The position numbers were made by a program, and so were the translations under genes. Below are positions 36,864 through 39,872 of a stretch of DNA of 48,064 nt, piece by piece (the first letter of the stretch is position 1; the number at the start of each line of letters is the position of its first letter). A model generated the notes under the pieces. It was given only the letters and a program-made list of their open reading frames with translations. It searched no databases and was not told where the DNA came from. The stretch lies in NCBI GenBank assembly GCA_021813125.1, contig JAKALT010000007.1, positions 1 through 48,064 of the forward strand. Reading direction: 5' to 3'. Origin of the DNA: a bacterium (GTDB lineage: Bacteria > Patescibacteriota > Microgenomatia > Curtissbacterales > GWA2-41-24).

Positions 36864-39800
36864 GTGAGTGATATCCTGCAAGATTTAAATCCACAGCAAA
36901 AAGAAGCAGTAACTACTACAGAAGATCCGCTTCTGATAATCGCCGGTGCGGGAACCGGCAAAACCACGGTTATTGCCAGAAGAATCGCCTACATCATCGA
37001 AAAAAAACTCGCAAGACCCGCAGAAATTTTAGCGCTAACCTTTACCGACAAAGCTGCAGGCGAAATGGAGGAACGCGTCGATCAACTAGTGCCATACGGT
37101 TTCACCGACACCTGGATTTCCACATTCCATGCCTTTGGGGATCGCATCCTCCGCGACAATGCTTTTGACCTTGGCATTTCTCCGGATTTTAAAGTCCTTT
37201 CAAAACCTCAGCAGGTTTTGTTTTTCCAGCAAAATATATTTAAGTTTAATTTGAATTATTATCGCCCTCTGTCTAATCCCACAAAATTTATATCAGCAAT
37301 ATTGTCATTCTTCTCCCGCCTCAAAGATGAAAACGTATCACCAGAAGAATTTCAAAAGTATGTCAGAAGTCAGAAGTCCCAGCCAAAGGCTGGTCGTCCT
37401 TTGGACGAAAAAGCTAATAATAGCGAAGATAAAGTTGAACTCCAAAAGGTCGAAGAACTGGCAAACGCTTATGCAACTTACGAAAGCCTAAAAACTAAAG
37501 CCGGACTTTTGGACTTCGGCGACCAGGTCACCAAAACTATTGACCTGTTTATTAAACGGCCGAAAATTTTAAAAGAATACCAAAGCCATTTTAAATATAT
37601 ATTAGTCGACGAATATCAGGACACCAATTTTGCCCAAAACGAACTTGTAAAACTTTTATCAAACTCTCACAAAAACATCTGTGTTGTCGGCGACGACGAC
37701 CAATCTATCTACAAATTTCGTGGTGCAGCAATTTCAAATATCATGCGCTTTAAGCGTGATTTCAAAAATGCCAAACAAGTAGTTCTAACCCAAAATTACC
37801 GCTCAACTCAAGCAATTTTGGACTGCGCCTACCGCTTAATTCGCCACAACGACCCCGACCGCCTTGAAGTCCAAAACAAAATCGACAAAAAATTAAAATC
37901 GCAAAAAAAAGAATATGGCCCTGTTCCCAAAGAAATTTATGCAGACACCCTGTCACAGGAAGCGGATCTTGTTGCGGCAGAGATTGAAAAACTTATGTCA
38001 AAAAGTAAATCTAAAATCAAATATTCTTTAGGCCCACAGGCGAAGTCGAGGACCGCAAGCTTTGCTTATCGTGATATTGCGATTTTGGTCCGCGCTAATT
38101 CATCAGCCGACCCATTCCTTCGCGCCCTTAACATGCGCAGTATTCCCCATAAATTTGTTGGCTCTTCAGGCCTTTACCAGCAGGAAGAAGTAGCCGTTTT
38201 AATTTCGTTTTTAACCTCAATTACCAATTTCGAAGACAGCCTCAATCTTTACAATCTCTTAGTTTCCGACATTTACCAAATACCGCCTGTCGATGCTATT
38301 AAACTTACATCTTTTGCTAGCCGCAAGAACAAATCGCTTTATTATTTATTAAAAAATTTAGAAAAAATCACTAACGATGATCTTGAATTGTCGGAAGATT
38401 CAAAATCAATTATAGAAAGGGTCATTGAAGATTTAGATGCCGCAATTGATCTCTCCAAAAAGCAAAATGCAGGGCGCGTACTTTTTGATTTCCTAAAGCG
38501 CACAAATTATCTAAAGCGTCTTGAAAAGGAAAACACAATAGAATCCCAAATTAAAATCCAAAACATTGCCAAATTTTTCGACAAAGTGCGTGAATTTACG
38601 GATGTGGCATCGACAGAAACAGTCACTCAGTTTGTCGACTATCTCGAAGCCTTACGCGGCGCAGGTGACGACCCGGCAACCGTTGAATTCGACCCGGAGA
38701 CCGATGCCGTGAATGTCATGACGGTCCACAGCGCCAAAGGCCTGGAATTTCCGGTTGTATTTTTGGTAAATCTAATCTCTGACAAATTCCCTTCTCGTTC
38801 CCGTCCGGAACCAGTCGAAGTTCCCAAAGAATTAATAAAAGAAGATTTGCCGCAAGGGGACTGGCACCGAGAGGAAGAGCGCCGCCTTTTTTATGTCGGC
38901 ACAACTCGCGCTAAAGATCTGTTGTATTTTTCCTGGGCGCGCGATACAGGAGCTTATCGCATTAAAAAAATCTCACCGTTTGTTTTGGAGGCACTCGACA
39001 AAACCAAAGCCGAAGGTGAGCTTGTTAAACTTTCCCCTTTAGAAAAAATTGCCCAGTTTGAACAAGCTGCCCCAAAAACCCATATCCAGACAGCATTTTT
39101 CGATGTTGACGTTTTAAAACTGACCCAGGGTTCAATCGACGATTACCTCACTTGCGCTTACAAATACCGCTACATTCATGTCCTGAAAATTCCTATTCTT
39201 CGCCACCATGCCATTGTTTACGGATCTGCCCTTCATGCAGCAGTTGCGCAGTTCTTGCGAGCCAAAAAACGCGGCAAGATAATATCAATTTCTCAGCTCT
39301 ATGAAATTTTTGAAAATGCCTGGGATAGCGAAGGCTTTCTAACAGTCGAACACGAAGAAAAAAGGAAAGAGCAGGGAAAACTGGCACTTTCTGCCTTTTG
39401 GAAGCGCGAATCCAAAACAAAAGACCTACCTTCTTTAATTGAATCAAAGTTCAAATTCTCACTCGAAGGCATAACGGTTGTCGGCCGCTATGACCGGGTT
39501 GACGTCAAGCCAGGATCAAAAATCGAAATCATCGACTACAAATCCTCCGAAAACATAGACCAAGATCGGGCTGAAGCTCAAGCTAAAGAATCAACCCAGC
39601 TGGCAATTTATGCGCTTTCTTACTGGCGCATGTATCAAATCCTTCCCGAAAAACTTACACTGCACTTTTTAGAGACCGGAATAGAAGGGTCCTACTCACC
39701 AACTCAAAAAGATATCGAAAAATCCGAAAAATTAATTTTAGATACAGCTCAAAAAATCAACCGAGACCTAAAATCAAATCATTTTGAAGCAAATCCCAAG

Positions 39801-39872
39801 TACTTCGGCCGTGAACCAGCTTGTGTCTACTGTGCGTATAAATCCATCTGCCCGTTTTCTTTAGCAAAGTGA
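36864..39872 (+). CDS. UvrD-family helicase fused to a PD-(D/E)XK Fe-S nuclease
   Basis: The 1002-residue protein starts at GTG. Helicase motifs in order are the Walker A GAGTGKTT (28-35), TFTDKAAGEMEERV, DEYQDTNFAQ (motif II, about 250), GDDDQSIYKFRGA, LTQNYRSTQAI, VMTVHSAKGLEFPVV and EERRLFYVGTTRA. From about residue 755 a RecB/AddB-like nuclease follows: TCAYKYRYIHVL (first cluster Cys), YGSALHAAV, GRYDRVDV, the catalytic IIDYKSSE, QLAIYALSYWR, and C987-x2-C990-x5-C996. This is the architecture of AddB-type Fe-S nucleases on a single chain. It likely processes DNA ends. Residues 167-182 and 390-401 come from repeat-like DNA. Confidence 0.94.
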   Translation: MSDILQDLNPQQKEAVTTTEDPLLIIAGAGTGKTTVIARRIAYIIEKKLARPAEILALTFTDKAAGEMEERVDQLVPYGFTDTWISTFHAFGDRILRDNAFDLGISPDFKVLSKPQQVLFFQQNIFKFNLNYYRPLSNPTKFISAILSFFSRLKDENVSPEEFQKYVRSQKSQPKAGRPLDEKANNSEDKVELQKVEELANAYATYESLKTKAGLLDFGDQVTKTIDLFIKRPKILKEYQSHFKYILVDEYQDTNFAQNELVKLLSNSHKNICVVGDDDQSIYKFRGAAISNIMRFKRDFKNAKQVVLTQNYRSTQAILDCAYRLIRHNDPDRLEVQNKIDKKLKSQKKEYGPVPKEIYADTLSQEADLVAAEIEKLMSKSKSKIKYSLGPQAKSRTASFAYRDIAILVRANSSADPFLRALNMRSIPHKFVGSSGLYQQEEVAVLISFLTSITNFEDSLNLYNLLVSDIYQIPPVDAIKLTSFASRKNKSLYYLLKNLEKITNDDLELSEDSKSIIERVIEDLDAAIDLSKKQNAGRVLFDFLKRTNYLKRLEKENTIESQIKIQNIAKFFDKVREFTDVASTETVTQFVDYLEALRGAGDDPATVEFDPETDAVNVMTVHSAKGLEFPVVFLVNLISDKFPSRSRPEPVEVPKELIKEDLPQGDWHREEERRLFYVGTTRAKDLLYFSWARDTGAYRIKKISPFVLEALDKTKAEGELVKLSPLEKIAQFEQAAPKTHIQTAFFDVDVLKLTQGSIDDYLTCAYKYRYIHVLKIPILRHHAIVYGSALHAAVAQFLRAKKRGKIISISQLYEIFENAWDSEGFLTVEHEEKRKEQGKLALSAFWKRESKTKDLPSLIESKFKFSLEGITVVGRYDRVDVKPGSKIEIIDYKSSENIDQDRAEAQAKESTQLAIYALSYWRMYQILPEKLTLHFLETGIEGSYSPTQKDIEKSEKLILDTAQKINRDLKSNHFEANPKYFGREPACVYCAYKSICPFSLAK
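37362..37408 (+). repeat. In-frame composite element: heptad repeat plus two abutting hairpins
   Basis: GTCAGAA occurs twice plus GTC (37362-37378). It is followed at once by CCAGCC-AAA-GGCTGG (37379-37393) and TCGTCC-TTT-GGACGA (37394-37408), both perfect 6-bp stems with 3-nt loops. CCAAAGG in the first and CCTTTGG in the second are complementary, so an alternative cross-pairing exists. It encodes residues 167-182 of the helicase, in a variable region before KVELQKVEEL. Confidence 0.75.
38032..38067 (+). repeat. Run of three short hairpins inside the helicase gene
   Basis: GCC-CACA-GGC (38032-38041), GTC-GAG-GAC (38045-38053) and AAGC-TTT-GCTT (38057-38067) follow one another and encode residues 390-401 just before the conserved YRDIAILVRAN. 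The stems are short, so chance is possible. Confidence 0.3.

Follow-up and report, generated by a model that had tools for sequence, protein, structure and literature searches.

A 30-nucleotide double hairpin within a patescibacterial helicase-nuclease gene belongs to a repeat family that behaves like a very small mobile element

The helicase-nuclease gene and its double hairpin

Our analysis concerned a stretch of 48,064 nucleotides, here called the window, in which positions 36864..39872 (+) encode a 1002-aa UvrD-like helicase with a C-terminal PD-(D/E)XK nuclease (Pfam PF00580, PF13361 and PF12705; phmmer to PcrA). A preliminary description of the sequence had placed a composite repeat inside this helicase-nuclease gene, and the repeat does lie there, in frame in the 1002-aa ORF. 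Its core is a 30-nt element at 37379..37408 (+), CCAGCCAAAGGCTGG TCGTCCTTTGGACGA, in which two perfect hairpins, each with a 6-bp stem and a 3-nt loop, abut without a spacer: CCAGCC-AAA-GGCTGG (37379..37393, +), whose pairs are kept by compensatory change across the family described below, and TCGTCC-TTT-GGACGA (37394..37408, +), for which C-G/G-C and G-C/T-A compensatory changes occur in relatives. The abutting hairpins, their positions and their AAA and TTT loops had all been read correctly from the sequence. As a whole, the element matches our covariance model R1 at 50.7 bits and accounts for the ten residues QPKAGRPLDE, along with the final base of the Ser codon that precedes and the first two bases of the Glu codon; this genome has the same peptide in its ribosomal protein uL4. 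Immediately 5' of the element lies the heptanucleotide tandem repeat GTCAGAA GTCAGAA GTC (37362..37378, +), which consists of two full units (37362-37368 and 37369-37375) and a partial third unit, GTC (37376-37378). The heptamers had been reported to join the hairpins without a gap and are indeed found directly 5', but the partial unit intervenes. Likewise, the estimate that about 16 residues were added in frame holds for the frame but not for the length, the insert proper comprising 10 codons and the stretch with the heptamers 47 nt. The 3' flank, AAAAGCT (37409..37415, +), has an A-rich start, which is the usual right target half by target-site composition.

The element is the sole abutting pair of perfect 6-bp hairpins within the window. 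Because shuffled windows contain 0.83 abutting 6-bp hairpin pairs each (loops 3-8, gaps <=3), the fold alone is weak evidence, and it is repetition that carries the case. Across the whole genome, perfect (12/12) zero-gap double hairpins with 3-nt loops occur twice against 0 expected, both in one sequence family, and a wider structural scan (loops 3-5, gaps 0-2) returned mainly tRNA arms and terminators besides the 30-nt family.

The insert is positioned in a linker of the N-terminal helicase domain, where PcrA has about 8 residues and the host helicase about 31 (phmmer). Helicase orthologues of about 70% identity differ at this site: three (L206, L208, L209) are without any insert, another (L212) carries the heptamers AAAGATC and AAAAGTC, twice each and with no hairpins, and in a fifth (L204) AAAAGTC heptamers flank both sides of a different hairpin. 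Judged from these comparisons, the insertion site is a variable linker. The QPKAGRPLDE peptide is not conserved in the helicase orthologues, in line with the earlier view that protein selection fits this regularity poorly. With flanks that are repetitive and variable and orthologues that differ in the linker, the boundaries of the window copy rest on the family, and it is the sister copies, not the helicase copy, that show a clean empty site.

A dispersed family with exact insertions

The 1.04-Mb assembly contains two further copies, both in genes, whereas a reversed-pattern control gave 0 matches. One (C8:8838) lies in the N-terminus of uL4 in the same frame as the helicase copy, and the other (C4:34580) in a glycosyltransferase in another frame, where it reads SAKGGSSSGR; the genome thus holds three copies in three unrelated genes and in two orientations relative to the gene. 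With covariance model R1, the three copies score 42-51 bits, and no other hit in the genome exceeds about 12 bits. The preliminary description had proposed looking for a second copy in the host genome and had named the lack of one, or conservation of the peptide across homologues, as findings that would speak against it; neither was observed. The proposed search of other CPR genomes for the double-hairpin core was also run, and the family proved widespread. Pattern matches occur in 8 of 15 genomes of the host's family, some of which, at 3 mismatches, may be chance, and R1 (E<=1e-5) detected the element in 63 of 287 Patescibacteria genomes; individual genomes reach 25 matches or more, of which some are counted on both strands. 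In one genome per GTDB species, a 41-bit pattern matched at least 114 stretches against an estimated 0.2 or so chance matches. Most of these belong to Patescibacteria, and the carriers also include MAGs of Omnitrophota, Ignavibacteria, Elusimicrobia, WOR-3, Stahlbacteria, Deltaproteobacteria, Bacteroidota and Dehalococcoidia. These non-Patescibacteria loci are MAG contigs, for some of which mis-binning is possible; mis-binned single contigs are an insufficient explanation, however, since multiple matches, up to 51, occur in 14 of the 15 carriers outside Patescibacteria. Six IMG/VR viral contigs (L197-L202), two of which (L198 and L201) share flanks, carry the element as well, and viral contigs are a possible route by which it passes between phyla.

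The consensus of the 30-nt unit is YCAGCCNNAGGCTGRTCCGCCTYTGGCGGA; the window copy has TCGTCC/GGACGA as stem 2. Pattern scans yielded 125 copies; in 118 of them the partly free pair of stem 2 is complementary, and each of the outer pairs of stem 1 is so in 122, figures to be read with the fact that the copy collections were gathered partly with a pattern fixing some stem bases. In 28 distinct sequences, 98.5% of stem cells form standard pairs, and double-change cells number 37, compared with 12.5 in shuffles and 0-1 in slid controls. On this evidence, both stems are maintained by compensatory changes. Two copies (L226:6402-6448 and L264:14800-14850) have extra nucleotides inside one hairpin, apparently split by a further insertion. 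In genome G107 (L263, L270, L271), three copies are nested in another palindrome, GCTAGGCT^AAAGCCTAGC, which suggests insertion into a second repeat family.

Occupied and empty sites define the inserted unit. The host glycosyltransferase reads ...WNSF SAKGGSSSGR DFSKFD..., and its counterparts in a genome of the same genus (G001, 86% identical over the aligned protein) and in G010, G009 and G008 read ...F DFSKFD..., an exact 10-residue gap. Exact 10-residue inserts relative to PDB homologues are likewise present in HisRS of a Giovannonibacterium and TsaD of a Komeilibacterium, PolA of G136 has an insert of about 9 residues, and tRNA fragments are split with nothing duplicated, as in GTAGTT|element|CAGTGG. 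Because protein presence and absence shows exactly ten residues, the unit is 30 nt without duplication. The joined target follows T[TCG]^[AG]A, with T at -2 in 68-88% and A at +2 in 78-93%. Flanking 7-bp direct repeats were seen at 14 of 122 copies against 0.92 expected; we rejected a 7-bp target duplication, given that the protein alignments show exactly ten inserted residues, and regard these repeats as pre-existing heptamers. A MITE of a DDE transposon was rejected on the absent target site duplication and the exact 30-nt insertion in HisRS, TsaD and the glycosyltransferase. The glycosyltransferase loop after WNSF (L003/L283, L109, L285) carries the element in the host species and in a Levyibacteriota genome, and in G011 it carries a different repeat-like insert; from these sequences, the loop would be an insertion hot spot. 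In one TsaD ORF (L088, position 2131), the element is accompanied by inserts reading CHPEFISGSTDKMLKQVQHD and SLRAERSNL...RSIDLPRND, apparently further in-frame palindromic repeats of larger size.

By mechanical ORF calls (>=180 aa, with >=15 aa on either side), 39 of 141 copies lie in ORFs compared with 69% of random positions, so genes are avoided overall. The avoidance differs between versions of the stem: 28 of 41 copies whose stems are free of an in-frame TGA (CCAGCC/GGCTGG, TCCGCC/GGCGGA, CCCGCC/GGCGGG) fall within ORFs, compared with 9 of 91 copies that have the TGA-bearing TCAGCC/GGCTGA stems (Fisher p=2e-11). Selection would explain why stop-bearing versions are strongly depleted in genes. 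In unrelated proteins, the element is read on both strands and in several frames, SAKGGPASGW and QPKAGPPLAE being typical in-gene peptides. Among the host genes in G136 are dnaJ, with two copies in the part for the G/F region, topA, a gene resembling thioredoxin reductase and the dihydrouridine synthase gene dus, all four with Pfam support, and polA, where one copy-bearing ORF encodes the 5' domain and one the polymerase domain. Another site of insertion, mostly antisense, is the D-loop of short 5' tRNA fragments, which themselves lie a little upstream of an intact tRNA gene; such tRNA-fragment copies (L116, L128, L134, L146, L161, L174, L181, L183, L224 and others) number 14 of 168 against 1.0 expected.

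Period-7 repeats are found in the joined 28-nt flanks of 30 of 168 copies against 2.2 expected, with other periods near zero, and in G107 the element lies within AAAAGTT arrays, also inside ORFs. The first impression of a composite of heptamers and double hairpin therefore captured an arrangement that recurs around copies, but GTCAGAA is outside the 30-nt unit. Tandem arrays in the host genome (G000) number 47 at period 7, compared with 5, 15, 1 and 1 at periods 5, 6, 8 and 9, and the heptanucleotide arrays have many different units (e.g. C24:51338, C28:711 and C8:904; also L223-L242 and L243-L249). The heptamer excess as a consequence of the element is not supported, because G019 is without the element and yet has such an excess (11 arrays in 140 kb). 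Stretches of G118 and G243 have neither element nor heptamer excess.

Probable origin and possible mobilisation of the element

The copies make up a repeat family of defined structure that inserts exactly, occurs in frame within genes and is patchily spread, behaviour like that of a mobile element, and of one among the smallest known. We believe that the window copy is very probably one member of a family of very small, dispersed, non-autonomous mobile elements. The 30-nt double hairpin would insert as an exact unit at T[TCG]^[AG]A-like sites with no target duplication and, since its length is divisible by three and some stems are stop-free, could survive in genes as a ten-residue loop or linker of the SAKGGPASGW or QPKAGPPLAE type. 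In the window, it would have entered the variable helicase linker beside heptamers of the kind that often host the family, and it presumably does nothing useful for the host protein. The element may move as a folded single strand of DNA or RNA with machinery supplied in trans, and we give a folded single-strand intermediate roughly even chances. More tentatively, it could stand as a separate kind of mobile element, the smallest for which in-frame invasion of protein-coding and tRNA sequence has been shown across several bacterial phyla; a general host process would then move the folded single strand, with no dedicated transposase, in a manner coupled to the heptanucleotide duplication of the same genomes.

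Several other explanations share part of this evidence. Mobilisation of a REP/REPIN-type repeat by a RAYT (REP-associated Y1 transposase) would be in keeping with a palindromic, dispersed unit of 30 nt with some nested copies, with the known occurrence of REPs inside genes, including replication and repair genes (PMC3733652), and with the presence of a Y1_Tnp gene in 27 of 40 carriers. However, such a gene is also present in 19 of 40 non-carriers (p=0.11) and absent from 13 of the 40 carriers, including seven with many matches (G136, G169, G230, G238, G247, G256, G281), and the element has no GTAG/CGTC tag. The window's own genome has a sole Y1_Tnp gene (C5:25753-26079, -), and this adjoins a different palindrome, CCAAGGCCTGGCCTTGG, of which the genome holds 5 copies (C5:26150, C5:26929, C20:5673, 5704 and 16227); the two probably form a separate REP/RAYT pair. 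Dependence on a RAYT was rejected, as Y1 fails to separate carriers from non-carriers and is missing from many-match carriers, and we consider the RAYT explanation unlikely. For cyanobacterial small dispersed repeats, copying by reverse transcriptase at nicks or gaps has reportedly been proposed, and double-hairpin RNA copied into DNA in this way is a real, if lesser, possibility here. Structure kept by compensatory change, embedding in heptanucleotide repeats, frequent insertion in tRNA-derived sequence and a weak association with reverse transcriptase genes (21 of 40 carriers, 9 of 40 non-carriers, p=0.01) agree with such an RNA intermediate, although the association may reflect lineage sampling and a search for PF00078 found no match in the window's own genome or in the many-match carriers G136, G169, G230 and G281.

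Without any mobile unit, palindromes could form in repeat-rich linkers through local slippage or template switching; the excess of period 7 over periods 8 and 9 in the host genome implies that a local duplication process is active, and different relatives carry different hairpins in the helicase linker. Slippage or template switching may be the source of the heptamers, but one 30-mer consensus recurs in unrelated genes of different phyla and forms clean 30-nt insertions in non-repetitive, conserved protein regions, and as an account of the element local origin is highly improbable. We think it slightly less credible still that the ten residues are a selected helicase linker or motif with DNA symmetry as a by-product: the peptide is in frame and in a linker, and Gly/Ser/Pro-rich peptides are plausible linkers, yet it is absent or different in the orthologues of about 70% identity, unrelated proteins use either strand and several frames of the DNA, TGA versions lie mostly outside ORFs, and the stems covary at the DNA level. 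In its strong form this reading is refuted; a weak form would be co-option after insertion. Next to no weight attaches to a conformational switch regulating the gene, an idea that goes back to the suggestion that the sequence alternates between two hairpins and one cross-paired form. CCAAAGG and CCTTTGG are truly complementary in this copy, but by RNA folding parameters the cross-paired form (-8.9 kcal/mol) is 7.5 kcal/mol weaker than the two hairpins (-16.4 kcal/mol), the loops are without covariation, their middle bases pairing below chance (43 observed, 66 expected, of 168), and Rfam gave no match for the element.

CPR genomes are often called streamlined, yet many carry the 30-nt element, and through it DNA polymerase I, topoisomerase I, DnaJ, HisRS, TsaD and ribosomal protein L4 have gained linkers of exactly ten codons, which offers natural experiments on the insertion tolerance of essential proteins. 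The element could further mark where groundwater-type bacteria and their viruses exchange DNA, and serve as a test case for the spread of a DNA unit too small to encode anything, and its patchy distribution with high-copy genomes makes the question of the mobiliser open to comparative genomics.

Comparison with known repeats

Fungal mitochondrial double-hairpin elements (DHEs) consist of two adjacent hairpins and are dispersed in compact genomes. The adjacent double hairpin is common to both, DHEs being mitochondrial, and the likeness is one of description; the name is used in PMC10085805 and others. With REPs and REPINs, the element shares short, palindromic, dispersed DNA and occasional intragenic copies. 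CGTC REPs have 8-9 bp stems and 4-5-nt loops (PMC3733652), whereas the 30-nt unit has 6-bp stems and 3-nt loops, is all stem and loop without an unpaired GTAG/CGTC tag, and is flanked by target sequence. IS200/IS605-derived elements insert, without target duplication, 3' of a fixed tetra- or pentanucleotide; at the 30-nt unit there is no target duplication, and the target is only loosely T[TCG]^[AG]A. The initial label of a small transposable or REP-like element was apt in substance as to transposability, but the tag, stem size, intragenic copies and Y1 distribution set the family apart from strict REPs.

Rickettsia palindromic elements (RPEs), known also from Wolbachia as WPE, are palindromic DNA of about 150 bp that lies in frame in unrelated genes and encodes a tolerated peptide (PMC10969869). 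The 30-nt element resembles them as a dispersed palindrome that is in frame in unrelated genes and absent from orthologues, with some copies elsewhere, but its two small hairpins amount to about a fifth of that length (PMC10969869). By description it is further set apart from RPEs in its hosts, Patescibacteria and other phyla, and in being translated from more than one strand and frame. As a kind, the element agrees with the RPE; as a sequence family, it does not, at 30 nt against about 150 bp.

The closest resemblance in form is to small dispersed repeats of cyanobacteria. Elhai et al. reportedly described in 2008 that SDR4-6 of Nostoc and relatives are 21-27 nt long and have conserved predicted hairpins with compensatory changes, and SDRs are said, in the same work, to be embedded in heptameric repeats, with nested insertions and a suspected RNA intermediate. 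A short hairpin unit with compensatory changes and an association with heptameric repeats were both found for the 30-nt element, which differs in length (30 nt against 21-27 nt) and in its taxa, the likeness being drawn from descriptions of SDRs; set against these, the 30-nt element is shown here to invade genes in frame, to associate with tRNA sequence and to span several phyla. Small dispersed repeats are cited as SDR in PMC3116915. In the open-access literature searched we found no description of this family, nor of palindromic or miniature elements in Patescibacteria, an absence that is not proof of novelty; the kind is already known from RPEs and SDRs, and the family is apparently undescribed there. 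By this comparison, the element looks most like a cyanobacterial SDR and would work like an RPE.
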